Shown here one piece after another: positions 1 to 34,203 of a stretch of 34,203 nt of DNA (position 1 is the first letter of the stretch; the number at the start of each line of letters is the position of its first letter). Position numbers and translations under genes: made by a program. Source of the DNA: Phycisphaerae bacterium (GTDB lineage Bacteria; Planctomycetota; Phycisphaerae; Phycisphaerales; SM1A02); contig VGXO01000001.1 in NCBI GenBank assembly GCA_016873275.1, forward strand, positions 125,678-159,880, written 5' to 3'. The notes under the pieces were generated by a model. It did no database searches. It was given only the letters and a program-made list of their open reading frames with translations, and was not told the DNA's origin.

Positions 1-1
1 C

Positions 2-583
2 GACCGCGCGGCGGCGGTGATCCTCCTCGTCGATCCGGGGCTCGTGCTGCACGGGACGCCGGAGCAGGTCGCGGAGGACGAGTTCGGCATGACCTCGGCG
101 GTGCGCCGCATCCGGCGCGGCGCCGGCGGCGCATCGATCCCGATCGCGCTCGTCCTCACCAAGCTCGACATCCACGGTCGGCTCGTGCGGGAGTGCGGCG
201 GGCTCGTGGGATTCGTGAAGACGCACATGTTCCCGCTGATGCGGGCGCTCCACCGGGTCCGGGTCTTCGGCTGCGTCGCGGTCCGCAGCCGCGAGGATGC
301 CCTCGGTCAGCAGCGCCCCGACCTCTCCGCCGAGCCGCTTGGGCTCCTCGAGCCGCTCGAGCACTGCCTGCGGTCGATGCCGGAGGTGCCGGCGCCTGCG
401 GCGGTGCCGCCTCCGCCGCGACCTTCCTCCGCGCCGCGCGAGGGTCCGCCGCCGACCTCCGAGGAGTCTTCCACGGGTCGACTCGTGCTGCTCGCGGCGA
501 TCCTCGTCGTCGCCGGCGTGCTCGCGGGGTTCGCCGTCGCGTGGGCGCTCGGCTTCCTCGGTCCGCCGGCGCTCGCCACCTGA
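2..583 (+). CDS. GTPase-like protein with C-terminal membrane anchor (partial, 5' end outside window)
   Basis: The reading frame is open from base 2, so only the last 193 residues are visible. The start, and any P-loop, lie upstream of the window. A hydrophobic strand ending in LLVDP is followed by a strand ending in TKLD (residues 53-56), which fits the G4 (NKxD-like) motif of a TRAFAC-type GTPase. The later segments V-R-V-F-G-C and E-P-L-G-L-L-E-P-L-E also fit the tail of a G domain. A Pro-rich linker (about 125-155) leads to one membrane helix (about 161-187) and a very short tail, so the GTPase should face the cytoplasm. The stop is 7 nt before the GAP1-N-like gene, which suggests one operon. 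I infer a 'double-GTPase' (DO-GTPase) type protein from the neighbouring GAP1 genes; the missing P-loop prevents proof. Confidence 0.55.
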   Translation, partial: DRAAAVILLVDPGLVLHGTPEQVAEDEFGMTSAVRRIRRGAGGASIPIALVLTKLDIHGRLVRECGGLVGFVKTHMFPLMRALHRVRVFGCVAVRSREDALGQQRPDLSAEPLGLLEPLEHCLRSMPEVPAPAAVPPPPRPSSAPREGPPPTSEESSTGRLVLLAAILVVAGVLAGFAVAWALGFLGPPALAT

Positions 584-590
584 GCCATCC

Positions 591-2507
591 ATGGACCTCA
601 TCCGGCTCGGCACCCACCTCTTCGGCTCCCGCGCGGGCTACCGCACGATCGCCCGGAGTCCGGACGTCTCCGATGCCGAGGACGCGGAGCTCGCGGTCTT
701 CGGGTTCGGTCAGACCGCCGACGACGCGGTGCTTGACCGGCTCGACGATGAGCCGAGCGCGTTCGGTCGGCCGGTGACCGGTGGACGCGTGGCGATCACC
801 CGCCTCTTCCGCGGCGAGCCGGACGAGTCCGGTCGCGCGACGCTCGAGCTGAGGACCATCCTCGTCTCGCCCGCCGACGCGCCGCGCCTCCTCCGCGCCG
901 GGCTTGGCGTGGTGCTGCAGCATCCGGCGATCTGGGACCGCCGGGCGTTCCTCGCGGGCGAGGGTCGCGCGGCGACGCCGCCCGAGGGCGAGGTGCGGCG
1001 CGACGAGGCGGCCGAGCAGGCGTTCGCGGCATGGAGCGACGGGATCCTCGGAGCGTCGGCGCCGGAGTCGCGGCGCATCGCGGTGCTCGATCCAGAGCCG
1101 GATGGCTCCGCGGCGATCTCCGGCCTCGCGGCGCTCGTCCGTCCCGCCGACCTCGCGAGGCTCCGCTGGGGAGTCCGACTGCTCTCGATCGGCGTGCCGG
1201 TCGACGTCTGCACGCTCGCGACGGGCGTCCGCGCGACGGGGAGAAGGATCGCGCGGCGGGTCCGCCTTGGCTCGGTGGAGGCGCTCGCGGAGCGAGACGC
1301 CGCCGGCGAGGCGATCCGTGCCTCGGTGGACGGGGTGTTCCCGAGCCTCGCGGCGGTGAGCGCGTCGCGGACCCGACCCGTGGTCGAGGTGGCGGCGCCG
1401 CGCGTGGCTCGCCGGGCGCCCGTGATCGCCGCGGTCGGCATCCTCGTCGCGGCGGGCGCCGGGATCTCGATCGCGGTCTCTCGATGCGGGGGTGCCGCCT
1501 CGTCCCCGGACGATCGCGCGACCGGGTCCTTGGTCGAGTCGATGGAGGTGCCCGACGAGGTCGAGCGCGTCGCGGTGGCGCCTCCGGCGGAGCCTCCCTC
1601 GGTCGATGACGTCGCGGCGACCAACGGCGATGCGCCGAGGAGCGCGGAGCCGGGCCCGACGCCCGTCGAGCCTCCCGCGCCGGGAGGTCTGCAGCAGCTT
1701 GGCGGCGACGCGTCGAGCCCCGAGCCTTCGATCGCGCCGTCGTTGGCAGACGAGATCGACGCGCCTCCTGAGGGCGACGAGCCCTCGACGACGGAGCCGT
1801 CGGAGGTGCCCGCGTCGGAGGCGGAGCCGCCCGTCGTGGACGCGGAGGACGCCGTCGCGCCGACCGACGCGCCCGGCGAGCAGGTGGTCTCGTCCCCCGG
1901 CGAGACCGCGAACGCGATCGTCGATCCCTGCGAGCGGTGCCGCGAGACCTCGCGTTGGATCAGCGAGCAGCTCGACCTCGCCGACCGGGCGATCAAGGAG
2001 GACCTCTGGGGGGATGCCCAGGACGCCCTCGACGGCGTGCTCCGGCAGCTCGGGTCCATCGACCTCGACGCGATCGAGGGCGAGGATCGCCGCGTCGTCT
2101 TGCAGCGTCTTCGAGGTCGCGGCGCGCCGCGCGACCTCGAGGAGTTCGAGTCCGACTGGGCATCGACCCGCGACCTTCTGTGCCGCCTCGAGGTCTGGCA
2201 GGCGTCGCTCGACCGGCTTGAGGACGTCTCGACCCGGCTCGCGGCGCGCGCCGCGGCGAGCCGCCAGTCGGCGGCGCTCCTCCGCAAGGAGTCGCTCTGG
2301 ATCCTCGGCTCGGAGCGTCCGACCGGACCTGCCCTCCGTCGCGCGATCTCGCAGATGAAGGAGCGGCTCCTCGTCGAGGCGGAGTCGCTCGGGGCGCCCG
2401 CGACCCTCCGCGCGTGGCTCCTCCTCGAGCGCGACGTCGGGACGCGGGTCTGGAGCGACGAGCGGTTCCGCCCGCCCTTCGTGGCGCCGCGACCTCCGGT
2501 GGAGTGA
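591..2507 (+). CDS. GAP1-N-like GTPase-associated membrane protein
   Basis: The protein has 638 residues. Residues 1-265 resemble the N-terminal domain of GTPase-associated protein 1 (GAP1-N) families: an opening H-L-F-G-S...GYRTIARSP strand-loop, followed by a GRATLELRTILVSPADA segment. One membrane helix follows (about 275-297). Next comes an acidic, Pro/Glu/Ser-rich linker (about 300-440), a CERC pair (C447, C450) and a helical C-terminal region (about 450-638). The predicted topology places the GAP1-N-like domain inside and the helical domain outside. The ATG was chosen because it lies 7 nt after the GTPase stop and gives the full N-terminal domain. GAP1 proteins are known companions of specialised GTPases in predicted NTP-dependent conflict systems; the exact role here is inference. 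A second GAP1-N protein lies on the opposite strand at 11530-12513. Confidence 0.6.
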   Translation: MDLIRLGTHLFGSRAGYRTIARSPDVSDAEDAELAVFGFGQTADDAVLDRLDDEPSAFGRPVTGGRVAITRLFRGEPDESGRATLELRTILVSPADAPRLLRAGLGVVLQHPAIWDRRAFLAGEGRAATPPEGEVRRDEAAEQAFAAWSDGILGASAPESRRIAVLDPEPDGSAAISGLAALVRPADLARLRWGVRLLSIGVPVDVCTLATGVRATGRRIARRVRLGSVEALAERDAAGEAIRASVDGVFPSLAAVSASRTRPVVEVAAPRVARRAPVIAAVGILVAAGAGISIAVSRCGGAASSPDDRATGSLVESMEVPDEVERVAVAPPAEPPSVDDVAATNGDAPRSAEPGPTPVEPPAPGGLQQLGGDASSPEPSIAPSLADEIDAPPEGDEPSTTEPSEVPASEAEPPVVDAEDAVAPTDAPGEQVVSSPGETANAIVDPCERCRETSRWISEQLDLADRAIKEDLWGDAQDALDGVLRQLGSIDLDAIEGEDRRVVLQRLRGRGAPRDLEEFESDWASTRDLLCRLEVWQASLDRLEDVSTRLAARAAASRQSAALLRKESLWILGSERPTGPALRRAISQMKERLLVEAESLGAPATLRAWLLLERDVGTRVWSDERFRPPFVAPRPPVE

Positions 2508-2556
2508 GCCTCGCCGCACGGTCCGCCCCGCACGGGCGCTACGCTTGACCTTCGCC

Positions 2557-5500
2557 ATGCGCCGATCGACCGGCAACCTCGCCCGAGCCAGCGCACGCAC
2601 CGCCGCGGCGCTCGCGTCGATCCTCGTCGCGGGATGCCGCAGCGAGCCGAGTCCGGCACCGAGGGAGGATCCGCCGCCGATCGTCTCGGTCGATCCAGGT
2701 CGGTCGGTGCCGATTGCGCGGAGTCCCTCGACGAGCCGGCGCATCGTTCCCGAAGACGCCGCTCGACCCGCCGAGGATGACCTCGCATCGACCACCGGCG
2801 GCAGCGTCTCATCGGGTGCTTCGGCGGGCGGCGCCGGGGCGTCCTCGAGCGCTGCGGGGTCGGCGCAGGGGGCGAGCGCCTCCGGAGTCCAGAGCGATGC
2901 CGCATCCGGCTCCGCCGCGAGCGGGGCGTCGAGCAGCGGCTCGTCCTCACCCGGCTCAGCTTCCGCTGGCTCTTCACCATCCGACTCCACCTCCGCTGCG
3001 CCTGCTTCCGGAACCTCGTCGTCATCCTCCTCGTCATCGTCTTCTTCGTCTTCCTCGTCGTCTGCCTCGTCGCCCTCCTCTGCAGCGGGCGAGTGCTCGG
3101 GCGGCGAGGGCGGCGGCTCGTCCTCACCCGGCTCAGCTTCCGCTGGCTCTTCACCATCCGGCTCCACCTCCGCTGCGCCTGCTTCCGGAACCTCGTCGTC
3201 ATCCTCCTCGTCATCGTCTTCTTCGTCTTCCTCGTCGTCTGCCTCGTCGCCTTCCTCTGCAGCGGGCGAGTGCTCGGGCGGCGGCTCGTCCTCCTCGGCG
3301 AGCGGACCGACCGAGTCGGGAGGTTCGGGTGCAGGAGGCGGCGCGGGCGACTCGCTCGGCGCCGATGCTCGGAGCAGCGATCACGCGCAGCCGACGGGCG
3401 CGAGTCCGCCGGGCACCGGCGCCGCGGGTGGCGCGACGCCGTGGATCAGACCCGAGGCGATGACCGGCGCGGATCCATCGGCGGGCGCACAGGGCGGAGG
3501 CGGCGCCGAGGCTGCGCCGGCGGACGCCGCCGTGCCGTCTGGCGGAGGCACCACCGCCGGCTCGCGTGGAGGCGCGCAGGGAGCAGGACGTCCCGATTCG
3601 GCGGGCGAGGCAGGTCTTGCTTCCGGCGAGTCGACCTCGAACGAGGCAGGTCCAAGCGGGACTGCTCGCGCCGGCGGAGTCGAGGGAGAGGCGCGGGACG
3701 ATTCCTTCCTCGATGCTCCAGCGCCGAGCGGCACGCGCGGCGCCTCGGAGAAATCGAGCGACGCGGGTCGAGCGAGCGAGGCTGGTGAGGGCGATGCCGC
3801 CTCGTCGACCGCCGAGGGACCCCTCACGCCGGAGCAGGCGACGGGTCGATCCGCTGGATCACCGGGCGGAGCGACCGAGACCGCGGGCGCCGAGGCGCCA
3901 CCGACGACTCCATCGGGCGCGACGAGCGCCGCTTCCGGTCGAGGCAAGGTCGACGCGAGCGATTCCGGCGATGCGAGCAATGCGGTCGATGCAACTCAGG
4001 GCGCTGGACGCGCCACGCCGCCCGAGGATGACGCCCCTCGCGAGGAGGCGGCAGTCGGGGCGGGATCCGCCACGGACGACGCCCGACCGATCGGCACGAC
4101 GACGGCGCCGACCGCGGACGATCCTCGAGCTCCGGATGCCTCGGAGTCCGGCGAGGCTGGATCTCCCGGCGGCACCACGGCGGTGGCTTCGGGGGAGTCG
4201 TCGGCGCCGAGCTCGACCGAGGATGCCCCGGCGTCCGCACGGGGCGGCGGAGGCGCCGCGGGAGAGGCGCGATCCGAGGATTCGACCGGCGGAGGCGCCG
4301 GTGGCGCTGGCGGAGGCGCTGCGCGCGGCACGGGGGGAAGGGGCGATCCTTCCGCGCCGACTTCCACGCAGACCTCCACCCAGACCTCCGCGACGACCTC
4401 GGGGGGCGGCGATGCCGGCGCGACCGGCTCAGCGCCGCTCGTCGAGGACGAAGCGAGAGGCGCGGATGGGACGGTCGGCGCCGGCGACTCAAGCGCAGGC
4501 GGAGGCTCGACCTCCTCGAGCGCCTCGACTGACGCTGGCTCCGTCGACGCGACTGGCGCGACTGGCGCGACTGGCGAGGGAGCAGGCGCCGCGTCGCGTG
4601 ACCTTGGTGGATCGGGCGATCCCGATGCCCTCGGAGCCCCGTCGACGATGGGAGACGGCGCCGAAGGCGGCGATTCCGAGGTCGATGCAGAGTCGTTCGG
4701 AGGCTCCGCGACCGGGACGACCCGCGGCTCGCGCGTGCTGCTCGAGGTGCCGGAGCTCGACCTCGCGCCGATCGAGCGCCGCCGCGAGCGGACCCGAAGC
4801 GAGTCGCCCGAGGACGATCCGCGCTGGATCCTGCGAGGCGCGTGGGAGCAGGTGAACCTCGACCGCAACGGACCGGACTTCGCGCCGGGCGGGTACGAGC
4901 GATCGCTCATCGTGGTCGATCCGCACGAGGGGACGCTTCGGCTCTACCGCGCCTTCGCGGGAGGCTTCACGACCGCGGGCGAGTTCGCGCTCGAGGTCCT
5001 GCTCGAGGGCGAGCTGCGGCTCGCGGCGTCGCCGGACCGACCGCACCGCTTCGCCGCGGAGCCGATCACCCTTCCGGGAGGCGCGGTGGTCGAGCCTCCC
5101 ATCGAGTCGCTCGAGGTCCTGCGCCGCTGGTCCTTCGCCGACGGCGAGCTCGACGTCGAGGGACGGCGGTATCGACGGATCGACCGCGCGACCTTCGAGC
5201 AGGTCGCGCGGGGAGGCGTGGTCGGGGCGGAGGGCGCCGGCGCGCCGGGCGCCGCGGGTCCCGCGACGAGCCGGACCATGCGGCTCGAGGACGAGGAGCC
5301 CGCGGCGGTCGACTTCTTCGGGACGAGCATCGTGGGGCGATACGTCTGCTTCATCGTGGACGTCAGCGGCTCCATGCAGGGAGCGAGGCTGCAGGCGGCG
5401 CTCGCGGAGCTCGCCGTGGCGATCGATGCCTTGCCGCCGGACCGATCGTTCTATGTGCTCTTCTTCAGCGGCTCGAAGCTCGTCCTCGAGGACCGCTGGA

Positions 5501-5808
5501 CCCGCGCGACCCCCCGCGGCAAGCGGGCGTTCATCGACCGCCTCGCGGGCGTCGGCGCGGATGGCGGCACCGAGCCGGCGTCCGCGATCGAGCACGCCTT
5601 CCGGATGCTCGCCCCCGTTCCGGACGAGGTGCACTTCATGACCGACGGGCTCATCCCGGCGCAGACGCCGGCGGTGTTCGCGTCGCTCAACGCCGGGCGG
5701 GTCCGCACGGTGGTGCACACCTACGCCTTCGGCGAGCGGGCGAGCGAGGCGATGCTCCGGGAGATCGCCCGCGAGCACGGCGGGACGTACCGGTTCGTGC
5801 CGGAGTGA
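2557..5808 (+). CDS. Giant vWA-domain lipoprotein with low-complexity tether
   Basis: The protein has 1,083 residues. The N-terminus is a lipoprotein signal peptide with lipobox V-A-G-C and the lipidated Cys at residue 27. Residues about 60-720 are almost entirely Ser, Gly, Ala, Thr, Asp and Glu, including two poly-Ser tracts inside a tandem duplication. A folded region of unknown type (about 750-890) starts with WILRGAWEQV. A C-terminal von Willebrand A domain (about 925-1083) has an intact MIDAS: DVSGS from D935, a GGTEPAS Thr segment and MTDGL. The vWA domain would bind a protein ligand through a divalent metal and sit on a long flexible leash fixed to a membrane. ATG 2557 is preferred over an upstream TTG (2545) because it begins right at the basic n-region. 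It lies 49 nt downstream of the GAP1-N-like gene, probably in the same operon. Confidence 0.75.
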   Translation: MRRSTGNLARASARTAAALASILVAGCRSEPSPAPREDPPPIVSVDPGRSVPIARSPSTSRRIVPEDAARPAEDDLASTTGGSVSSGASAGGAGASSSAAGSAQGASASGVQSDAASGSAASGASSSGSSSPGSASAGSSPSDSTSAAPASGTSSSSSSSSSSSSSSSSASSPSSAAGECSGGEGGGSSSPGSASAGSSPSGSTSAAPASGTSSSSSSSSSSSSSSSSASSPSSAAGECSGGGSSSSASGPTESGGSGAGGGAGDSLGADARSSDHAQPTGASPPGTGAAGGATPWIRPEAMTGADPSAGAQGGGGAEAAPADAAVPSGGGTTAGSRGGAQGAGRPDSAGEAGLASGESTSNEAGPSGTARAGGVEGEARDDSFLDAPAPSGTRGASEKSSDAGRASEAGEGDAASSTAEGPLTPEQATGRSAGSPGGATETAGAEAPPTTPSGATSAASGRGKVDASDSGDASNAVDATQGAGRATPPEDDAPREEAAVGAGSATDDARPIGTTTAPTADDPRAPDASESGEAGSPGGTTAVASGESSAPSSTEDAPASARGGGGAAGEARSEDSTGGGAGGAGGGAARGTGGRGDPSAPTSTQTSTQTSATTSGGGDAGATGSAPLVEDEARGADGTVGAGDSSAGGGSTSSSASTDAGSVDATGATGATGEGAGAASRDLGGSGDPDALGAPSTMGDGAEGGDSEVDAESFGGSATGTTRGSRVLLEVPELDLAPIERRRERTRSESPEDDPRWILRGAWEQVNLDRNGPDFAPGGYERSLIVVDPHEGTLRLYRAFAGGFTTAGEFALEVLLEGELRLAASPDRPHRFAAEPITLPGGAVVEPPIESLEVLRRWSFADGELDVEGRRYRRIDRATFEQVARGGVVGAEGAGAPGAAGPATSRTMRLEDEEPAAVDFFGTSIVGRYVCFIVDVSGSMQGARLQAALAELAVAIDALPPDRSFYVLFFSGSKLVLEDRWTRATPRGKRAFIDRLAGVGADGGTEPASAIEHAFRMLAPVPDEVHFMTDGLIPAQTPAVFASLNAGRVRTVVHTYAFGERASEAMLREIAREHGGTYRFVPE
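2936..3283 (+). repeat. Tandem duplication, 177-bp period, inside the vWA lipoprotein gene
   Basis: Bases 2936-3106 recur at 3113-3283 with an offset of 177 bp (59 codons, so the frame is kept). I count two mismatches, at 2984 (a/g) and 3075 (c/t). Each copy encodes a Ser/Pro/Ala/Gly stretch followed by a run of 16 Ser codons that mix TCG, TCA, TCC and TCT, then a short AAGECSGG tail. The segment is visibly poorer in GC than its surroundings. Near-identity implies a recent duplication. Confidence 0.9.
4549..4575 (+). repeat. Three perfect 9-bp tandem units in the lipoprotein linker
   Basis: The unit gcgactggc occurs three times without mismatch and encodes the ATGATGATG part of the low-complexity tether. 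It is a small in-frame microsatellite and shows that the linker changes length by whole codons. Confidence 0.85.
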
Positions 5809-5824
5809 CGGCTCGACGCCCTGC

Positions 5825-6775
5825 TCACTGCGCGGTCGTCGCGCCCTCGAGGATCTCGTCGCGGTAGGAGAAGGACGCGGGCTCGATCGCCGTCGGCGCG
5901 ACGTCGTAGAGGAATCCCCGCGCCGCGACCGCCGCCCGCACCGCCGCGAACTCCCGGAAGGAGTCGGGCGAGACCTTGATCGAGACGACGTGCCGGGCGG
6001 GATCGAGCGTGGCGATCGCTCGACGCCACTCGCGGTCCCGCTCGAGCCGCGCGGCGTCGGTCACCGGCACGCCGCCCTCCGGCAGGAGGTAGGCGGTGCG
6101 CTCGAGGTGCTGCCCGCCCGCCCGCCAGCAGTAGTGGATGATCGAGATGCTGCGATCGGGATCGACCGCCTGCGGGTTCCAGGTGCTCCATGAATCGCAG
6201 GGATGCGCCGCGGGATCGGACCAGTCGTTGAGGAGGTAGGCGCGACCGCGGGCGACGACGAGCTGCGCGGGCACGCGGTCGGCAAGCTCCCGCCGCCGCG
6301 GCGTGCGCACCGAGACCTCCCTCGTCGCGCGGATCGAGCGGAGCTCGTCCTCGAGCCGGCTCACCTCGACCTCGAGGAGCGGACGCTCCGACTCCGCGCC
6401 CCGCTCGAGCAGATCCTGCTCGTCGAGGGCGGCCTGCAGCGCCGCGAGCCGCGCCCGCCGCGCCGCAAGCTCGAGGTCGGCGTCCTCGACCGCCTGCCCG
6501 AACCGCGCCGCCGCGCGGGACTCCTCGTCGAGCGCGCCGGGATCGAGCGCCGCGAGCCGCGCCGCGACCTCGTCCCGCTCCCGCCTCGCCGCGGCGAGGC
6601 GGGCATCCTCGATCCTCCGCGGATCCTCGACGGTCGGCTCCTGCGCCCGGACGGAGGCGATGAGCGCGACGAGCATCGCGACGAAGATGAACAGCCCGAA
6701 CATGTTGCAGATCGTGTCGAGCAGGAGGTCGAGGCTCTCCGCGGTCTCCTCGCGGCGTCGGCATCTCCTGCTCAT
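5825..6775 (-). CDS. ExbD/TolR-like stator protein with coiled coil (second paralogue)
   Basis: The protein has 316 residues. A short Arg-rich cytoplasmic start leads to one membrane helix (about 16-43). An Asp (D20, in the motif LLLDTICNMFG) lies at the cytoplasmic edge, the position of the proton-carrying Asp of ExbD/TolR/MotB. A long coiled coil follows (about 50-165), then a C-terminal domain (about 166-316) containing a CDSW segment and ISIIHYCW. ExbD family members are normally about 140 residues, so the coiled coil and the C-terminal domain are additions. The start ATG overlaps the stop of the upstream ExbD-like gene as ATGA. It is the last gene of the leftward operon, ending 16 bp from the stop of the vWA lipoprotein gene. 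A role as part of an ion-driven stator is inferred from topology and from the neighbouring ExbB-like gene. Confidence 0.65.
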   Translation of the reverse strand: MSRRCRRREETAESLDLLLDTICNMFGLFIFVAMLVALIASVRAQEPTVEDPRRIEDARLAAARRERDEVAARLAALDPGALDEESRAAARFGQAVEDADLELAARRARLAALQAALDEQDLLERGAESERPLLEVEVSRLEDELRSIRATREVSVRTPRRRELADRVPAQLVVARGRAYLLNDWSDPAAHPCDSWSTWNPQAVDPDRSISIIHYCWRAGGQHLERTAYLLPEGGVPVTDAARLERDREWRRAIATLDPARHVVSIKVSPDSFREFAAVRAAVAARGFLYDVAPTAIEPASFSYRDEILEGATTAQ

Positions 6776-7641
6776 GGTCGAGTCTCCCCGGGCACGCCGT
6801 CGGCGCCGGAGCCGACCTCGTCGTTGGGCGACTCATCCCCCGCCGGTCGCGGCGCCGGAAAGGCGTCGGAGGTCCACTGCTCCTCGGGCAGCAGGTCGAG
6901 CCCGAGCACGACCTCGTTGCCGCGCGGGTCCTCGGCAAGCAGCCGCAGGAGCGCCCGATGGACCGCGAGCCCCGAGGGCTTGAGGACGACGAGCAGCGTG
7001 CGCTTCCGCCAGTCCTCCCGCGACGCGAAGAGATCGAGGAGCGCCGCCGCCGCGGCGTCCGGGTCCGCGACGTCGAGCGCCTGCGCCGCCTCCGCCTCCT
7101 GGTCGAAGGAGAGGACGATCCGCGAGCCGGAGACCTCGGCGACGGTCGGCGGGAAGGGCTCCGCCCGGTCGAGGAGGTAGACGATCCGCCGCCTCCGCTC
7201 CGCGGCGGCAAGTTCCTCGACGAGCCGCTCTCGGCGCCGGCGGAGCTCGTCGGCGATGGCGGCGTCGGCGTCGAGCTCGGCGCCCCGCAGCGACGCGGCG
7301 AGCCGCGCCTCGGCGTCGAGGATCGCCGCGCGGAGCCGGCGGAGCTCGGCGTCGGCATCGAGGAGCCGCCGCCGCAGCGGGGCGAGCGCCTCGTTCGGAT
7401 CGACCGCCGCGCGCCGCTCGGCATCGACGAGCCGCGCGCGGAGGACGTCGAGCTCCGCCTCGACCGCCGCAAGGTCGGCGTCGTCGGCGGGCTCCGGCGG
7501 CGCCGCGGTCCGTGCCGACGCGGTCGCGCCGAGCTGCAGGACGAGGAGCAAGGTCATCAGGATGGTCAGCCCGATGGTGCAGACCATCACGTCCTGGAAG
7601 GAGAAGAACGAGACGATGGCGTCGTCGCGGCGGCGGCGCAT
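6772..7641 (-). CDS. ExbD/TolR-like stator protein with coiled coil (first paralogue)
   Basis: The protein has 289 residues. A basic N-terminus is followed by one membrane helix (about 10-36) with D17 in the motif FSFQDVMVCTIG, matching the essential membrane Asp of the ExbD/TolR/MotB family. Residues about 50-150 form a heptad-rich Ala/Arg/Glu/Leu coiled coil. Residues about 150-260 form a small alpha/beta domain with strands such as RIVLSF and TLLVVLKPSG. It differs in sequence from the downstream ExbD-like protein, so the stator could be a heterodimer. It lies 9 nt downstream of the ExbB-like gene and overlaps the next gene by 4 nt. No clear ribosome-binding site is visible, so translational coupling is likely. 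Confidence 0.65.
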   Translation of the reverse strand: MRRRRDDAIVSFFSFQDVMVCTIGLTILMTLLLVLQLGATASARTAAPPEPADDADLAAVEAELDVLRARLVDAERRAAVDPNEALAPLRRRLLDADAELRRLRAAILDAEARLAASLRGAELDADAAIADELRRRRERLVEELAAAERRRRIVYLLDRAEPFPPTVAEVSGSRIVLSFDQEAEAAQALDVADPDAAAAALLDLFASREDWRKRTLLVVLKPSGLAVHRALLRLLAEDPRGNEVVLGLDLLPEEQWTSDAFPAPRPAGDESPNDEVGSGADGVPGETRP

Positions 7642-7650
7642 GGAGTGACC

Positions 7651-8529
7651 TCAGGCCTCGCGCGGCGCGATGAGGCGGACGCGCGAGACGATCTCCGCCA
7701 CGCACTTCTCCCGCACCTCGTCGAGGAAGGACTCGTCCTGCCTCCGCACGAAGACCTGGAGCAGGTGGATGAGGAGCGCCGCGACGAGCGCCTCGCCGGT
7801 CGTGATGAACGCGGTGTCGAGCCCGGCGATCACCTGGCTCAGCACCTTGGTGATCTCCTCGAGCGGGAGTCCGGGCTGACCGAGGACCCCGCCGAATCGA
7901 CCGATCGCCTGGGTGAGCCCGACGATCGTCCCGATGAAGCCGAGGACCGGGATCGCCCAGGTGAAGCCGCGGACGAGGGTGTAGCCGCCGTCGACGACCT
8001 GCTCGTCCTGGTCGGCGCGGCTCGCGAGCATCTCGTCGACGTCGGCGACCCGTCCGACGTTGCGGACGCTCTTCAGCGCCCGCAGCACCCGCGCGAGGTA
8101 CATGAACCGCTCCGGCTCCTCGACGCTCGTCTCGACCGCCGCGATCACCCGCTCGGCGCTTGCGCTCGAGACGACGAAGCCCGGATCGGCGGGAAGGAAG
8201 CGCAGGAGGAACGCCCGGCGCTGCGCGCGGATCTTGAGTCCCTTCAGGACGAGGATCGAGGTCGACCACGCGGCGAGGAACGCCATCGGGATCGGGATCC
8301 CCGAGAACCCGGTGAGCCACAGCCACGCGGTCGCGAAGCCGGGGCGCTCGCGGAGCGGATAGAGCCCGCCGTAGACGATCCCGAGCGCGACGAGCGCGAG
8401 GAGGAGGGCGGTCATCGCGCTTGGGTTCGTGAATCGTCCGGAGGGAAGCCCGAGGCGGCGCTCGGGATCCTCGCGCGAGTACCGCAGCGCGAAGCCGGAG
8501 GCGGGGGCGGGTGCGGTCGAGGCGCTCAT
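7651..8529 (-). CDS. MotA/TolQ/ExbB proton channel family protein
   Basis: The protein has 292 residues. Four membrane segments are visible: about 39-58, 68-97, 190-211 and 233-260. The third contains IPVLGFIGTIVGLTQAI and the fourth contains DTAFITTGEALVAALLIH. Both are hallmark segments of the MotA/TolQ/ExbB family, which forms the ion-conducting pentamer around an ExbD/TolR/MotB dimer. The cytoplasmic loop (about 98-189) has the usual size. The start MSASTAP was chosen over an in-frame ATG 81 nt upstream, which would overlap the coding end of the preceding gene. It lies 16 nt after the large helical gene and just before two ExbD-like genes, so a complete stator module is encoded here. Confidence 0.85.
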   Translation of the reverse strand: MSASTAPAPASGFALRYSREDPERRLGLPSGRFTNPSAMTALLLALVALGIVYGGLYPLRERPGFATAWLWLTGFSGIPIPMAFLAAWSTSILVLKGLKIRAQRRAFLLRFLPADPGFVVSSASAERVIAAVETSVEEPERFMYLARVLRALKSVRNVGRVADVDEMLASRADQDEQVVDGGYTLVRGFTWAIPVLGFIGTIVGLTQAIGRFGGVLGQPGLPLEEITKVLSQVIAGLDTAFITTGEALVAALLIHLLQVFVRRQDESFLDEVREKCVAEIVSRVRLIAPREA

Positions 8530-8545
8530 CGGGTGCTCCGGGAGT

Positions 8546-11533
8546 TCAGCGGAGGAAGAGCTGGGCGGGCGCCGCGGCAGGCGGCGGACCAGCGAAGGAG
8601 GCGGCGCCATCCTCGAAGGTCGTGCCGACGAGGAGCGCCGGACCGCCGTCGCGGGGAAGGACGACGACGAACGCGCCGCCGCGGAGGACCGCGTCGCCGG
8701 CGCCGCGGAAGGGACCGTTGGGACCCTCGGCGCGAAGCGTGCCGGCGGGGACCGCCGGGCGGAGCGCCGAGACGAGCTCGCGCCACCAGAGGTCCTCGCG
8801 GTCGGAGGCGGCGGCGGCGTCCGGCGCCTCGCCGATCGCGAGCCGCGCGGCGCGGCGGGCGGCGGCGAGCGCCGCGCGACCCTCGGGCGCGACCTTCACC
8901 CAGTCGAGGCTCCGGTCACCGAGGCGACCGGTCGAGAGGTCCTCCCGCCACGCCGCCGACACGTCCGCCTCGGGTCCCGGCAGCGTTGCGTGGACGCTCC
9001 AGACGAGCCGCAGGAACGCAAGCTGCATCAGCGGGTCGTCGTCCGCCTCGGCGGACGCTGCCTTCGCGAGGGCGAGCACCTCGCGTCGCACCGCGCTTCC
9101 GGGCACCGCGGCGAGGCGGGGGAGGTGCGTCCGCAGGAGCCGCGCCGGCATCGTCTCGACCGGCGTTCCCGAGGGCGGCGCGGGCAGGTCGGTGCGGGTC
9201 GAGAGCGTCCCCGGCGGCGCGAGCAGGTCGAGCTCGCTCGAGAGCGCGCCATCGAGGACGCCGGCGCCTCCGGCGCGGCGGTAGACGAAGCCGCCGTTGG
9301 CGAGCGGCACCCGCTCGAGCGTCGCGAAGCCGGAGGCGAGGAGCCGTGCCGCGGCGAGCGAGCGCTCGTCGAGGGCGTCGTCGGGAAGCGCCGCGAGGCG
9401 CTCCGCGTGCCCGCCGAGGCGCCGCGCCGCGTCGGCGTGAGGCGAGCGCGGGAACCGCTCGAGGTGCTCGCGGACGAGCGACGCGACCGCCCGCGCCGAG
9501 CCGCGGTCCTCGGGATGGAAGGGATCGTCCGGAGGCGTCGTCGCGCGGATCGAGCGCGAGGCGACCTCGCGCCACTGGCGGATCCCAAGCGCCGCGTCCG
9601 CCGCGGCGAGCCCTGCCTCGTAGGAGGGGGCGAGCCCCCGTGCCGCGAGCACCGCGCCGTGCCGATCGAGGAGCGCCCGGTACGCCGCGGCGAACCGCTC
9701 CTCGTCGGCGTCCTCCGCGAGGAGCTCGCCGAGGAGCCGGTCGAGGTCGGCGAGCCCCTCGACCCGTCGGGTCAGTCCCTCGCGCCGCGCCGCGAGGCGG
9801 TCGAGGAAGAGGTCGATCGAGGCTCGCTCGGTCGCCGGGACGGGCGCGGCGTCGATCCCCGCCCGCGCCTCGTCGCGGACGAGGTCGACCGCGGCGAGCG
9901 CGGCGGCGACCTCCGCGGGACCGGCGTTCGGGGGAGGCGACGCCTGCGCCGCGAGGGTCCGCTCGAGCTCGGCAAGGAGCGCCCGGAGCTCGACCGCGCG
10001 GCGCTCGTCGAGCTGCGCGAGCGACTCCCGGGCGCGCGACTCGAGCGCGGCGGCTTCCTCGACCTCGCCGCCCCGCGGACCGGCGCCCGCGAGGAGCCGA
10101 AGCGCCGACTCCGCCGCGCCGCGGCGGGCGGCGTCGTCGCCCTGCGCCTCGAGGAGCGACTCCGCCTGCGCGAGGAGCGCCGCGACCGCCGCGCGGCGAT
10201 CACGATCCGTCGCGACCGCCGCGCGGGCGGCATCGAGCGATCGGCTCATGCGGTCGCGGGAGGCGGGAAGCCAGGCGTCGCCCGCGCGCCCGGTCGCGTC
10301 GAGGTCGGCGAGGAGCGCCTCGGCGGCGACGAGCTCGCCCGCGGCGACGAGGCGGTCGAGATCCTCCGCCGAGGCAAGCGCCGCCCGCTCGCGGGCGAGG
10401 CGCCAGGCGCCGAGGGAGATCGCGGAGGCGGCGATCAGGACGACTCCGCCGACGACCGCGGCGCGGACGCGGCGGCGCCGAGTCATCTCCGCGTCGTGGC
10501 GTCCGCGGAGCGCCTCGACGCGGACGAGGAGCCGCGGCGGCGTCGGTCGCTCGGTCCGCCCGAGCGCCGCGGCGATCGGCTCGACCTCGCGCCAGGCGGC
10601 GCCCGAGTCGAGCGACCGCTCGAGGTCGGCGGAGAGCCGCGCCGCGTCGAGGTCGAGCGACTCCTCGCGGCGGAGCGACGCGGTCCAGCGGAACGCCGAC
10701 TCGCCGCGCTCGAGGAGGTCGCGGCGCGGACCCTGCGCCTCGTCCGCCGGAAGCGACGCGACGAGCGCCCGCCACGCGGGCTCCAGCCGGTCGAGCGCCG
10801 GGCGGTCCATCGCCGCGAACGCGCCATGGACCGAGTCGGCGAGCGCGGCGAGATCGCGATGCGACGCGCCCGAGCGGAGCCTCGCGAGGTCGCGGGCGAT
10901 CCCCGTGCCGAGGTCCTCGCCGAGGATCCGCGCCCACGATCTCGCGCGGAGCGACCGCTCGACCGCCTCGAGCGCCGGGAGGTCCCCGCGGGATGCTGCA
11001 TCGCGGGCGGCGCGGCGGATCGCGGACTCCGCCGCCCGCTCGAGGAGGTCGATCTCGGCGGCGACCGACGCGTCGCGGCGGTCGAGGGCACGCAGCCGGT
11101 CGAGGACCGCGAGCCGCTCGAGCGGCGGTCGCGCGGCGAGCGCGGCGGCGACGCGGGCCCGCTGCTCCTCCGCCCGCGAGCGGAGGGAGACGTAGGCGAC
11201 GTTCAGCCGCTCGATCAGGCGCCGATCGATCGAGCCTCGCCGTCCGACGCTCGACAGGAACCGTCGTCCCGCCTCGTCCTGCGTGAGCACGCCGACGATC
11301 CGCTCGATCTCCGCCGCGCGGCGGACGAGCCCGCCGGAGTCTTCCGCGTAGGCGACCGACTCGGCGAGGAGTCCCTCGTCGAGCCACCCGCCGAGGATCG
11401 CGAGCGCCTCGGCGATCCGGGCGGACTCGGCGGCGAGGCGGCGGGCGAGCTCCGGATCGAGCCGAGCCGCGTCGCGGGAGGCGACCGCGCGGTCGAGGTC
11501 GGCGACGAGTCCGAGGTCCCACGTCGCGGTCAT
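8546..11533 (-). CDS. Large single-pass helical protein of the GAP1/stator locus
   Basis: The protein has 995 residues and belongs to no family I can name. The N-terminal part (about 1-350) is soluble and almost all helical. One membrane helix lies at about 354-376, flanked by RRRR on the cytoplasmic side. The remaining 620 residues are rich in Ala, Arg, Glu and Leu, with long coiled-coil stretches (about 385-560) and a mixed region towards the C-terminus. It should therefore link cytoplasm to periplasm. The start MTATWDLG overlaps the stop of the tail-anchored GAP1-N gene as ATGA; an upstream in-frame start would run further into that gene. The position between GAP1-N and ExbB suggests a scaffold that couples nucleotide-dependent events inside to the stator. 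It could correspond to the middle or C-terminal modules of GAP1 proteins, but I cannot show that. Confidence 0.6.
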   Translation of the reverse strand: MTATWDLGLVADLDRAVASRDAARLDPELARRLAAESARIAEALAILGGWLDEGLLAESVAYAEDSGGLVRRAAEIERIVGVLTQDEAGRRFLSSVGRRGSIDRRLIERLNVAYVSLRSRAEEQRARVAAALAARPPLERLAVLDRLRALDRRDASVAAEIDLLERAAESAIRRAARDAASRGDLPALEAVERSLRARSWARILGEDLGTGIARDLARLRSGASHRDLAALADSVHGAFAAMDRPALDRLEPAWRALVASLPADEAQGPRRDLLERGESAFRWTASLRREESLDLDAARLSADLERSLDSGAAWREVEPIAAALGRTERPTPPRLLVRVEALRGRHDAEMTRRRRVRAAVVGGVVLIAASAISLGAWRLARERAALASAEDLDRLVAAGELVAAEALLADLDATGRAGDAWLPASRDRMSRSLDAARAAVATDRDRRAAVAALLAQAESLLEAQGDDAARRGAAESALRLLAGAGPRGGEVEEAAALESRARESLAQLDERRAVELRALLAELERTLAAQASPPPNAGPAEVAAALAAVDLVRDEARAGIDAAPVPATERASIDLFLDRLAARREGLTRRVEGLADLDRLLGELLAEDADEERFAAAYRALLDRHGAVLAARGLAPSYEAGLAAADAALGIRQWREVASRSIRATTPPDDPFHPEDRGSARAVASLVREHLERFPRSPHADAARRLGGHAERLAALPDDALDERSLAAARLLASGFATLERVPLANGGFVYRRAGGAGVLDGALSSELDLLAPPGTLSTRTDLPAPPSGTPVETMPARLLRTHLPRLAAVPGSAVRREVLALAKAASAEADDDPLMQLAFLRLVWSVHATLPGPEADVSAAWREDLSTGRLGDRSLDWVKVAPEGRAALAAARRAARLAIGEAPDAAAASDREDLWWRELVSALRPAVPAGTLRAEGPNGPFRGAGDAVLRGGAFVVVLPRDGGPALLVGTTFEDGAASFAGPPPAAAPAQLFLR

Positions 11534-12513
11534 GGCGCGACCTCCCGCAGCAGCAGCCACGCGACGAGTCCCGCGAGGAGGAGCGAGACCGCGACCGCCG
11601 CGGCGAGGAGGAGGCGCGGCGAGCGGGGGGCGTCGTCGAGCACGACCTCGATCGGGATCGCGAGGAAGCGCGGGTCGTCGATGGGCTCGATCGTCTCCTC
11701 CTCGACCGCGCCGAAGGCGACCGCAGGACGCTCGGGCGTGCCGCCGAGCGGTCGTCCCTGCCTCGCCGCGTCCGCCTCGGGCGATGCCGGAGGGGAGGCG
11801 GGGGCGCGGAGGTCAAGCAATGCTGCGCCCGCAGGCATCGGCTTGGTGGCGATCGCGAGCGCCTCCGGATCGAGCATCGCGCAGAGGATCGTGGTCCCCG
11901 GCGGCGCGTGGTCGAGCCGGTCGGCGAAGGAGAAGCTCGACCGACGCTCGCGCGGAAGGAGCGCGAGCATCTCGACCGCGAGACGACGCGGGTCGGCGCG
12001 GGCGGGCAGGAGCAGGACGAGCGGCTCCCCGCCGAGCACCTCGATCCGTCGGAGCGCCTCGCCCGCCCAGCCGGCGTCGCCGGTCGCGGACGCCCACGCC
12101 GCGCAGGGCATGCCGCCGATCGACGATCCAGGAAGCGGGGGCGGCGCCGCGATCTCGCGCGGTGGACCCTCCCATCGCTCGAGCGGGCGCCACTCCGAGA
12201 CGAGCGCCGCGGGATCGACGGACCCGAGGTCGCGCTCGTCGAGGAGGAGGTGATGCGCGACGCGGTTGGGACCTCCGCCCGCATCCGGCGCCGGTCGCGT
12301 CGAGGAGAGGATCGACCACGCGGAGCCGAGCGCCTCGACCCGCCGCAGCGCGAGCGTGGGGCGCGGGTCGCGGTCGAGCCGGTGCCCGGAGAGCCCGACC
12401 GCGAGGCGCTCGGCGAGCGGCGGCATCCCCGCGGTGCGGGCGACGACGTGGAAGCCGGGTCCGCCGCCGTCGAGCCCGCGAGGCGCCCAGGCGTGGACGA
12501 GCTCGAGGCTCAT
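11530..12513 (-). CDS. Tail-anchored GAP1-N family protein
   Basis: The protein has 327 residues. The opening E-L-V-H-A-W-A-P-R-G-L-D-G-G-G-P-G-F, then VVARTAGMP, L-S-G-H-R and NRVAHHLLLDERDL fit the GAP1-N pattern as I remember it from planctomycete proteins (prGLk-G--GF-tVa-T-gmp ... N-lAHH--l). A second part (about 155-220) has LVLLLPARADP and LLPRERRSSFSF, typical of the region after GAP1-N. A linker leads to one C-terminal membrane helix (about 298-322), so the protein is tail-anchored with GAP1-N inside. GAP1 proteins are predicted regulators or partners of DO-GTPases. The start forms an ATGA overlap with the zinc-ribbon gene and the stop forms another with the large helical gene. Confidence 0.75.
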   Translation of the reverse strand: MSLELVHAWAPRGLDGGGPGFHVVARTAGMPPLAERLAVGLSGHRLDRDPRPTLALRRVEALGSAWSILSSTRPAPDAGGGPNRVAHHLLLDERDLGSVDPAALVSEWRPLERWEGPPREIAAPPPLPGSSIGGMPCAAWASATGDAGWAGEALRRIEVLGGEPLVLLLPARADPRRLAVEMLALLPRERRSSFSFADRLDHAPPGTTILCAMLDPEALAIATKPMPAGAALLDLRAPASPPASPEADAARQGRPLGGTPERPAVAFGAVEEETIEPIDDPRFLAIPIEVVLDDAPRSPRLLLAAAVAVSLLLAGLVAWLLLREVAP

Positions 12514-12788
12514 CGAGCGGTGCTCCGCGCGAGCGCATCCTCGACGAGCCCGCGCGGCAGCTCCGCACGGCACGCGGGACACGCGAGGCGGCTGCAGGAT
12601 GCGCCCGAGGGATCGATGGGACGACCCTCGAGGTCGAAGCGACCCGGCGCGAACCGAAGCGCTGCGCCGCCGCCGAGGACGGGATCCTCCGGAAGACCAC
12701 GACCCTCCGCGATCGCGCGGCAGGACTCCGGGTGGAAGGTCGCTCCGCACCCCGGGCATCGGACGATCGATGGTTCGTGGCGGGTCAT
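12510..12788 (-). CDS. Small stand-alone zinc-ribbon protein
   Basis: The protein has 92 residues. Two CxxC knuckles, C11-P-G-C14 and C70-P-A-C73, frame a loop containing F-D-L-E-G-R-P-I-D. This is a zinc-ribbon layout; C23 and C65 are extra cysteines. It is the first gene of the leftward operon and overlaps the GAP1-N gene by 4 nt. As far as I recall, a similar ribbon is fused to the front of DO-GTPases in GAP1 loci. Here it ends at residue 92, about where a G domain would begin, so it may be a detached adaptor for the GTPase encoded at 2-583. It could instead bind nucleic acid; the sequence does not decide this. Confidence 0.7.
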   Translation of the reverse strand: MTRHEPSIVRCPGCGATFHPESCRAIAEGRGLPEDPVLGGGAALRFAPGRFDLEGRPIDPSGASCSRLACPACRAELPRGLVEDALARSTAR

Positions 12789-15250: not shown

Positions 15251-15327
15251 GCCCGGAGGGTACGACGGGCGGCCGCAGGCGCGGGGTTCGGGGGCTGGTG
15301 CTTCGGGAGGCACCCATCACCCATGGT

Positions 15328-15442
15328 GCAGCGCTTCGCCGACCCAGTTGTCCACCGGGTCCACCGGGTCCACCGGGTCCACGTCCACCGATCCGAAGTC
15401 CCATGACGACGGAAGGCGCCCGCCGCGCGAGCCTGTGCTACG
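15328..15442 (-). repeat. Copy 1 of an interspersed intergenic repeat element
   Basis: Read on the minus strand, the segment runs CGTAGCACAGGCTCGCG, GGCGCCTTCCGTCGTCATGG, GACTTCGGATCGG, four near-copies of GTGGACCCG, then CAACTGGGTCGGCGAAGCGC. The same modules recur in the same order at 33938-34089 and again from 34143 to the window end. It lies between nuoA and the acylase gene and overlaps neither. Confidence 0.85.
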
Positions 15443-33921: not shown

Positions 33922-33937
33922 GCGAGGGGAGGCGGCA

Positions 33938-34089
33938 GCCTTCCGTCGTCATGGGACTTCGGATCGGTGGACGTGGACCCGGTGGTGGTGTTCGTCGGTG
34001 GACGTGGACCCGGTGGTGGTGTTCGTCGGTGGACGTGGACCCGGTGGACCCGGTGGACCCAGTAGACAACTGGGTGGGCGAAGCGCTGC
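33938..34089 (+). repeat. Copy 2 of the interspersed repeat element
   Basis: It starts 17 bp after the pseudopilin stop. It contains GCCTTCCGTCGTCATGGGAC, TTCGGATCGG, a block built from GTGGACCCG-like units, CAACTGGGT and GGGCGAAGCGCTGC, the same modules and order as copy 1 read on the minus strand. It differs by an internal 31-bp duplication. Confidence 0.88.
33965..34026 (+). repeat. Two perfect 31-bp tandem units inside repeat copy 2
   Basis: Bases 33965-33995 and 33996-34026 are identical (31 bp each); a third unit begins at 34027 but diverges after the GTGGACCCGGTGG part. Copy 1 lacks this expansion. Confidence 0.9.
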
Positions 34090-34142
34090 GGTGACGGGCG
34101 GATGCCTGACGAAGCACGGGCTGCCGGGGTCGCGGACACCTT

Positions 34143-34203
34143 CCGTAGCACACGCTCGCGCGGCGGGCGCCTTCCGTCGTCATGGGACTTCGGATCGGTG
34201 GAC
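34143..34203 (+). repeat. Copy 3 of the interspersed repeat element (cut by window end)
   Basis: CCGTAGCACACGCTCGCG, then GCGGCGGGCGCCTTCCGTCG and TCATGGGACTTCGG match copy 1 (minus strand, 15442 leftwards) almost base for base. It starts 53 bp after copy 2 and the same point in the two copies is 231 bp apart, so the element is arranged in tandem here and probably continues beyond the window. Confidence 0.85.

Follow-up and report, generated by a model that had tools for sequence, protein, structure and literature searches.

Pairs of a DO-GTPase and a GAP1-N2 protein were described by Kaur et al. (2020; PMC7159879) and read there as parts of conflict systems. The main text of that paper includes planctomycete GAP1-N2 systems in which paired GYF domains are fused to trypsin or to a transmembrane-rich region, so that part of the neighbourhood treated here has been seen before; ExbB, MotA, TolQ and TolR do not occur in that main text. 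For the Agl-Glt machine of Myxococcus, the relevant passages of PMC3169522 and PMC12288465 name AglR and GltJ among the effectors of MglA and the von Willebrand factor A (vWA) lipoprotein CglB as an adhesin, and AglQ and AglS match PF02472 (PMC3169522). Section 8 of PMC12204202 (2025) proposes vWA force transducers in the Planctomycetota-Verrucomicrobiota-Chlamydiota (PVC) group, encoded beside one TolQ-like gene and two TolR-like genes that differ from each other. In this study, we report a locus of nine genes at the beginning of a 34,203-nt stretch of DNA from a Phycisphaerae bacterium, hereafter the window (positions 125678-159880 of contig C1 in genome G000, an assembly of 3.23 Mb in 136 contigs). 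It encodes a DO-GTPase, a tail-anchored GAP1-N2 protein (GAPa), a second GAP1-N2-like protein (GAPb), a zinc ribbon, a single-pass protein of 995 amino acids (aa) named BIG, an ExbB-type channel with an ExbD-like pair (D1 and D2) and a vWA lipoprotein. The core of the locus is GTPase, GAP1 and BIG; the motor formed by ExbB, D1 and D2 is usual and sometimes missing, and the vWA gene and the second GTPase-GAP1 unit are lineage-specific.

A BLAST-level search with GAPa found it in 10 of 61 relatives, the genome of the window included, at 11 places. GAP1 is followed by BIG in nine of the ten neighbourhoods fetched (with one gene between them in L026, L027 and L029; L025 ends at a contig edge), and ExbB, D1 and D2 are all present in seven of the ten (L021, L022, L024, L026, L027, L029 and L030). 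Scanned with an ExbB alignment, the genome collection yielded 193 relatives, and loci L031-L110 are the top 80 of these. Their conserved order is zinc-ribbon/GTPase, GAP1, BIG, ExbB, D1, D2. According to six-frame hidden Markov model matches at E 1e-3, D1 follows downstream of ExbB, in the same orientation, in 64 of the 66 loci with room for it (the misses are L091 and L092) and D2 in 55 of 56 (L091 being the miss). Upstream of ExbB, among loci with enough sequence, BIG was matched in 56/57 (it is missed in L100), GAP1 in 46/46 and a zinc-ribbon GTPase or its remnant in 38/38. These counts are not independent, given that the profiles were built from the ten GAPa loci, three of which recur among the 80, and that several loci are near-copies. 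The overlaps between the sets are L032 with G001, L035 with G029 and L070 with G019, together with L031 and G002 as judged from a shared cut BIG. Gene calls outside the window were made with a home-made codon-usage caller, and their starts are approximate.

In the reverse direction, 294 Planctomycetota genomes were searched with the BIG, ExbB and GAP1 profiles; among them are counted the two that had supplied profile sequences (G000, that of the window, and G053). Only the best 2 BIG, 8 ExbB and 3 GAP1 candidates per genome were scored, and the absences are therefore lower bounds. Strong BIG matches (E <1e-50) were found at 15 places in 13 genomes, with a GAP1 within a few kb at 14 of them (the exception being G200:C651), and five more BIG places were weak, with E from 4e-9 to 9e-6. 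GAP1 itself was matched at 18 places: these 14, a second copy in the G235 locus, and one each in G069, where GAP1 stands at the contig start and BIG would fall off the end, and in G158 and G169, whose assemblies are broken into ~550 and ~840 contigs. The ExbB matches split sharply. Twelve places reached at least 291 bits, nine of them beside both BIG and GAP1. The other 29 places scored no more than 211 bits, and at none of them did BIG or GAP1 lie nearby on the contig. The remaining three high-scoring ExbB are those of G226 (with a weak BIG 1.4 kb off) and G114 (with a weak BIG of 28 bits in a local search), neither of which has a GAP1 match, and that of G158, where ExbB and GAP1 lie on separate contigs. 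Therefore, one ExbB clade belongs to the locus, and the association of the genes is not due to chance. The first-pass annotation of this DNA had proposed such a search for co-occurrence, and the homologues are not scattered over unrelated places.

The loci found from ExbB are mainly planctomycete. The ExbB tree, of 70 rows, has two large parts. One, of 36 rows, includes the window and bins titled Phycisphaerales, Planctomycetia, Singulisphaera, others and one Bacteroidota; the other, of 34 rows, includes other Planctomycetota (Botrimarina colliarenosi, L090, among them), Verrucomicrobiota, Lentisphaerota, Thermodesulfobacteriota and one Nitrospirota-titled bin, taxon labels being the submitters' titles of bins that can hold stray contigs. 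BIG is present in all three genomes of the genus of the window, and the nearest relative loci are L031 and L032. A RidA-like gene on one side and a penicillin amidase gene on the other adjoin the locus in L021 and L032, and the RidA side is shared in L031; these flanking genes were matched through antisense frames, which the home-made caller had called there. As far as the contigs reach, the site of the locus is stable in the genus.

Within the window the nine genes are arranged as listed in Table 1. The layout of the first-pass annotation was verified from the lists of open reading frames (ORFs) and the exact starts: two convergent units, with three genes on the + strand and six on the - strand, are separated stop to stop by 16 bases (5809-5824), and 4-base overlaps join three pairs of genes (12510-12513, 11530-11533 and 6772-6775). 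A repeat of ~110 bases was also noted at L009:10264-10373, ~1.7 kb upstream of the window, and at window positions 15325-15433 and 33931-34203. It has 56 matching places genome-wide, many of them partial, and the copies of the upstream array are spaced by 135-170 bases.

Table 1. Genes of the locus, with positions counted from the first base of the window (cut-offs are those of Pfam).
Product	Position	Strand	Observations
DO-GTPase, tail-anchored, C-terminal half in window	1..583	+	full gene L009:11432-12583, start 569 bases upstream
GAPb, GAP1-N2-like	591..2507	+	GAP1-N2 15.5 bits, under cut-off 24
vWA lipoprotein	2545..5808	+	lipobox; Ser/Gly/Ala-rich linker; VWA_3 52.7 bits
D2, ExbD-like topology	5825..6775	-	N-terminal helix with Asp20, coiled coil, C-terminal domain
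D1, ExbD-like topology	6772..7641	-	FxFQD motif with Asp17
MotA/TolQ/ExbB-type channel	7651..8529	-	PF01618 31.8 bits, cut-off 22.9
BIG, 995 aa, single-pass	8546..11533	-	one membrane helix; no Pfam family above cut-off
GAPa, tail-anchored GAP1-N2 with GAP1-M-like second domain	11530..12513	-	GAP1-N2 34.6 bits, cut-off 24
Zinc ribbon, 92 aa	12510..12788	-	two CxxC pairs in sequence

The channel gene is what the first-pass annotation took it for, as it exceeds the PF01618 cut-off and also holds the conserved Thr residues of the last two helices. MotA_ExbB was matched at six places in the genome of the window, the ExbB of the locus being the lowest scorer of the six, and the ExbB profile matched nothing among PDB sequences at E 0.01. 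The residues of the ion path are invariant: Thr201, Thr243 and Thr244 of ExbB in 68/68 sequences each, Phe13, Phe15, Gln16 and Asp17 of D1 in 62/62 and Asp20 of D2 in 63/63 (counted from 70 D1 and 67 D2 rows, minus the rows gapped at the column). D1 and D2 are paralogous (hhalign probability 98.8, E 1e-16) and have the same predicted topology, an N-terminal helix with the single invariant Asp and a further domain beyond it, and their genes stand beside ExbB. Because a profile link to canonical ExbD was not obtained, 'ExbD-like' refers here to topology, place and Asp and to nothing more. Neither D1 nor D2 matched a Pfam family above cut-off; the matches NUDE_C on D2 and DUF6479 on D1 were taken as coiled-coil or chance. 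Lower-scoring relatives of this cassette were found in five other Planctomycetota operons (L164-L168), in which ExbB is 407-572 aa long (with two CxxC in four of the five) and is accompanied by D1 and/or D2. The order is ExbB-D1-D2 in L166-L168, one D gene was recognised in L164 and L165, and no GTPase, GAP1 or BIG was recognised in the stretches fetched.

Reading of 12 kb upstream completed the GTPase of the window, and the GTPase-like membrane protein of the first-pass annotation was thereby confirmed. It has 383 aa and an intact P-loop (GRRNAGKT), exceeds the cut-offs of 27 for both DO-GTPase2 (39.9 bits) and DO-GTPase1 (37.4 bits), and is predicted to have a membrane helix near its C-terminus, at ~residue 345. 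It also contains DYSGE, which we take to be a switch-II-like motif, and TKLD; no match was found among PDB sequences at E 0.1. In most loci a zinc-ribbon P-loop GTPase of several hundred aa, with a P-loop that is mostly GAPxxGKS, directly precedes GAPa. In the window and its allies this gene is reduced to the ribbon alone, and the opposing unit encodes, along with GAPb, a second GTPase that is mostly tail-anchored and has the P-loop GRRxAGKT or GRTxAGKT. By comparison with these relatives, the ribbon of 92 aa represents what a zinc-ribbon DO-GTPase leaves after loss of its GTPase domain. Modules are thus gained and lost, and each of the 38 loci tallied retains one P-loop GTPase or more. This tally was drawn from 40 loci with at least 8 kb upstream and leaves out L089 and L093, whose contigs end within the zinc-ribbon gene; for L072 the P-loop was read separately. 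The second GTPase is present in all seven loci with a stripped ribbon, and both GTPases are found in L042, the sole such locus in the tally, and in L095, for which less upstream sequence exists. Of the two parts of the ExbB tree, only that of the window was seen to have the second GTPase-GAP1 unit. Stripped-ribbon loci form two tree groups (the window's pair, and L039/L041/L038/L046/L048/L051), and one ribbon loss or two are both possible because the separateness of the groups rests on an unstarred fork. Other domains head the GTPase in single loci, namely an FHA-like sequence in L098 (14.5 bits, under cut-off) and GYF_2 in L101.

As to the two GAP1-N-like proteins announced by the first-pass annotation, GAPa clears the GAP1-N2 cut-off, and it is the only place in its genome that does; GAPb stays under it. 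The second domain of GAPa scores 16.1 bits for GAP1-M in the window (cut-off 24) and 44.4 bits in its relative of L090. No GAP1-C match appeared in the Pfam scans of the window proteins and relatives, the existence of such a Pfam model being unconfirmed. GAPb has one membrane helix at ~residue 272, and the part C-terminal to it is probably periplasmic. Relatives of GAPb stand in the corresponding place of other loci; that of L042 reaches 21.3 bits for GAP1-N2, also under cut-off, and that of L068 carries TSP3 repeats. The AlphaFold2 model of GAPa (35 sequences, pLDDT 88) shows the order b-b-a-b-b-b-a, which we set beside what we take to be the Longin order, followed by an alpha/beta domain. 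Its top match was TagF of the type VI secretion system (T6SS; 9t0n) both in Foldseek (E 5e-4) and in VIA-align (Z 7.4, 224 aligned, root-mean-square deviation (rmsd) 5.0, sequence identity 9%). The first 17 VIA-align rows comprise 3 TagF and 14 entries titled as Longin/DENN proteins or their GTPase-regulator complexes, the matched chain not being named in complex entries. Among the matches are DENND1B (Z 6.3, 225 aligned, rmsd 6.3), DENND1A (Z 6.2, 232 aligned, rmsd 5.6), Loki roadblock-longin (Z 6.1, 120 aligned, rmsd 3.8) and an FLCN complex (Z 5.1, 114 aligned, rmsd 4.1). All these Z are below 8, and the modelled resemblance to TagF and, more weakly, to eukaryotic Longin/DENN GTPase regulators is therefore a lead and not membership. 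PAS/LOV domains were listed by Foldseek after TagF and were discarded, VIA-align having placed Longin/DENN entries higher. PDB sequence matches of the BIG, D1 and GAPa profiles, which were designed or natural coiled coils and others, were judged to be chance. TssM of the T6SS has a GTPase-like domain, and the resemblance of GAP1-N2, TagF and Longin/DENN raises the question whether TagF regulates it.

Relatives of BIG have 949-1064 aa. In all 58 called, uncut relatives of 880-1120 aa a membrane helix starts at residues 319-380, and in 54 it is the sole one predicted. The protein consists of a helical N-terminal part of ~350 aa, the membrane helix and ~620 aa beyond it, ending in a small beta domain. 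Because basic residues flank the helix on its N-terminal side, the first third should be cytoplasmic, and the ~620-aa part is probably periplasmic. The AlphaFold2 model (45 sequences, pLDDT 87, pTM 0.54) has an all-helical N-terminal part, a long helical middle and the C-terminal beta domain. Fold searches gave general helical matches only (best Z 10.3 at rmsd 31), and for this reason no fold is claimed for BIG, which had no Pfam family above cut-off either; AAA_25 (E 0.0097, below cut-off) was taken as coiled-coil or chance. A shorter BIG-like protein directly precedes ExbB in G114 and G226 (L116 and L117), the genomes without a GAP1 match. It corresponds to the periplasmic C-terminal region of BIG (hhalign probability 96.9, E 2e-10, 273 columns with alignment A4; probability 81.5 with alignment A2, over a longer alignment) and has ~100 called residues before its membrane helix, or at most ~200 if the L117 frame starts earlier. 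The GTPase-GAP1-BIG loci that have no motor and this short BIG without GAP1 together indicate that BIG is the part common to both modules. At L117:6403-14765 the short BIG-like protein, ExbB, D1 and D2 lie near a histidine kinase, a YfiR/HmsC-like protein and a TonB-dependent receptor. Because no receptor was called in its sister L116, we abandoned the assignment of the L117 cousin to a TonB receptor system.

The vWA lipoprotein of the first-pass annotation was upheld by a predicted lipobox (...ILVAGC) and by the VWA_3 match. The C-terminal vWA domain has MIDAS-like motifs (DVSGS...TDG), and the linker before it spans 631 residues (window 2722-4614), 84% of them S/G/A/T/E/P. Both motif patterns were found in 35 of the 41 vWA ORFs of L031-L110, where some first-motif matches fall in the linker. 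Stop-to-stop ORF lengths of the relatives vary widely, and some are cut by contig ends. Many loci of the other clade encode, between BIG and ExbB, a protein that combines a GYF domain with membrane helices. Spread over 29 loci, the GYF cluster counts 30 members, of which 21 lie within the operon. Each of the four members scanned as GYF proteins has two GYF_2 stretches; those of L036 and L040, which belong to the window's clade and lie upstream, are trypsin-like proteins that gave no GYF match and joined through BLAST. GYF_2 also heads a vWA protein in L087. Upstream of the operon, L038:3754-5373 encodes a protein of FHA-GAF-SpoIIE phosphatase type (Pfam was run on this copy only); its BLAST relatives occur in 8 loci, L038 and seven more of the window's clade, and may reflect simple synteny.

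From gene content and by analogy, we favour with modest confidence the reading that the locus encodes a GTP-gated, ion-driven force machine across the envelope, which would work like the Agl-Glt machine of Myxococcus without belonging to it. In such a complex, a five-subunit ExbB channel with a D1/D2 pair would form the ion-driven motor. BIG, anchored by its single helix, would dock the GTPase module with its cytoplasmic half and work with the motor through its periplasmic half. The DO-GTPase would be the switch, and the membrane-anchored GAP1 proteins, with their Longin/DENN-like fold, would set its nucleotide state, as GTPase-activating protein or as guanine nucleotide exchange factor; the GTP state would decide whether the motor is engaged. 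The moving periplasmic parts would then pull on or reposition components of the envelope or surface, here probably the vWA lipoprotein with its long linker as a flexible tether, a principle that resembles the GTPase-controlled AglRQS-Glt focal-adhesion machine. More tentatively, and as a possibility that we regard as rather doubtful in its full form, this would be an undescribed class of motor in which a DO-GTPase under a membrane-anchored Longin/DENN-type regulator gates ExbB-D1-D2 through BIG and drives surface adhesion or movement, an independent invention of the Myxococcus focal-adhesion principle and the missing output of the PVC GAP1-N2 systems.

Several observations weigh against the force machine. 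Motor-less loci exist: L023 and L028 hold the zinc-ribbon GTPase profile, GAP1 and BIG, and so do, as GTPase-GAP1-BIG, L111 (G222), L112 (G141), L113 (G200:C33) and L114 (G095:C55, a 10.9-kb contig), L115 (G095:C167) being unjudged since its BIG lies at the contig end. Force is therefore not needed in all versions. The ExbD family PF02472 matches 0/25 D1 and 0/23 D2 at E 0.01, and hhalign of D1 and D2 against ExbD of related genomes gave probabilities of 1.6 and 0.8, so that of the two ExbD-like proteins of the first-pass annotation the topology, the place and the membrane Asp stand and the Pfam family does not. The Longin/DENN resemblance of GAPa is weak (Z <=6.3), and Z <8 can reflect a common arrangement. 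The vWA gene is not universal: of the 42 loci that extend 5 kb or more in the downstream direction 29 carry one there, and of the 23 with enough sequence on either side 14 carry one somewhere in reach. The system is also patchy, in 10 of 37 genomes of the family. The nine genes that had been joined into one machine are thus reduced to GTPase, GAP1, BIG, ExbB and two ExbD-like proteins in one conserved locus, around which the other parts come and go.

Among the alternatives, a conflict system, anti-phage or abortive, in which GTPase and GAP1 sense an invader and the ExbB-D motor is a membrane-disturbing effector comparable to that of Zorya, seems unlikely to us. The reading of DO-GTPase and GAP1 as conflict parts in the main text of PMC7159879, the patchy distribution (12 of 61 relatives), the variable accessory genes and weak matches of ExbB to ZorA2 (15.5 bits) and of BIG to LmuB (13.1 bits) are consistent with it. 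Yet BIG is kept throughout the genus, with neighbouring stretches alike where contigs show them, seven of nine scanned neighbour proteins belong to ordinary metabolic or structural families (two had none), and the sole PADLOC match among these nine covers a RidA domain. Moreover, the ExbB pattern picked up no relative among viral contigs, tblastn with the BIG of L090 gave none among plasmids or phages, and the nine proteins of the locus include no other Zorya protein.

Still less likely, in our view, is a motor for envelope maintenance or uptake of Tol-Pal or TonB type, with the vWA protein as a periplasmic chaperone or scaffold and a GTPase that only tunes it. This would fit the related ExbB-D1-D2 operons without recognised GTPase, GAP1 or BIG (L166-L168, and also L164 and L165), the closeness of the L117 cousin to a TonB-dependent receptor gene and the vWA force transducers linked to PVC motor genes in section 8 of PMC12204202, but it leaves the retention of a P-loop GTPase in every tallied locus unexplained. 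Besides, no receptor was called in the sister L116 (whose genes were Pfam-scanned for ExbB only), and the SHLS transducer motif is absent among 20 listed vWA membrane segments, one of which (L067) comes from a cut gene and is probably no true anchor. Finally, that a GTPase-GAP1-BIG system and an unrelated ExbB-D motor are mere neighbours, co-operonic for reasons of expression, is very improbable: each module does occur without the other, but one ExbB clade is tied to the locus in bins of several phyla, and BIG accompanies both modules, its cytoplasmic part being far shorter in the absence of GAP1.

As far as the literature searched shows, DO-GTPase/GAP1 systems are known from genome comparison only, and no laboratory work on this locus was found in it (supplements were not covered). 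The conserved link to an ion-driven motor makes it testable whether a GTP state gates a motor of ExbB type. If GAP1, a protein called merely 'GTPase-associated' by Kaur et al. (2020; PMC7159879), is a bacterial Longin/DENN, GTPase control in bacteria would be connected to the eukaryotic regulators of Rab, Rag and Arf and to TagF of the T6SS. Should the machine act at the cell surface, the problem solved by Agl-Glt would have been solved twice, in two different phyla.

With respect to known systems, the locus shares with AglRQS-Glt of M. xanthus, as far as the passages cited at the outset describe it, one ExbB-like and two ExbD-like proteins, a GTPase with its GAP, an envelope-spanning transducer and a surface vWA lipoprotein. 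It differs in having a DO-GTPase instead of MglA, GAP1 instead of the roadblock protein MglB, and D1 and D2 outside PF02472; it is also compact and single, and no glt gene was identified in it. Since the families of GTPase, GAP and ExbD all differ, the locus is not a member of Agl-Glt. Zorya, which comprises ZorA-ZorB with ZorC/D or ZorE, likewise has a MotA-like motor in a putative conflict context, but in the Zorya test ZorA2 matched with only 15.5 bits (ExbB) and 12.7 bits, and a further match reached 12.2 bits against a cut-off of 700. To our knowledge, Zorya systems have no GTPase. GltJ of Myxococcus, for its part, has zinc-ribbon and GYF domains. In the T6SS, TagF is the closest solved fold to GAPa, but no T6SS family was matched among the nine proteins. 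The proposed PVC clusters with vWA force transducers (PMC12204202) also combine a membrane-anchored vWA protein with one TolQ-like gene and a pair of differing TolR-like genes, and may overlap with the motor half of the locus. They differ in that section 8 has no GTPase or GAP1 ("GTPase" occurs 0 times in the available text of PMC12204202), that their vWA proteins carry SHLS, unlike those listed for the locus (the vWA protein of the window itself has no membrane helix of that kind), and that a TPR gene stands there instead of BIG. Closest are the DO-GTPase/GAP1-N2 systems, which have the GTPase-GAP1-N2 pair, a zinc-ribbon GTPase, a membrane-anchored GAP1, paired GYF and, in some themes, vWA. 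Instead of the FNIII-repeat partner that is typical according to the main text of PMC7159879, the locus has BIG and the ExbB/D1/D2 motor, and no fibronectin III match was found in its nine proteins at E 0.1. The claim of the first-pass annotation that no such system had been described is thus narrowed, the pair having been known since 2020 in a paper whose main text lacks the motor genes. On the sequence comparisons made here, the locus seems to be a variant of the DO-GTPase/GAP1-N2 systems with a motor and BIG added, a combination that seems undescribed as one system.

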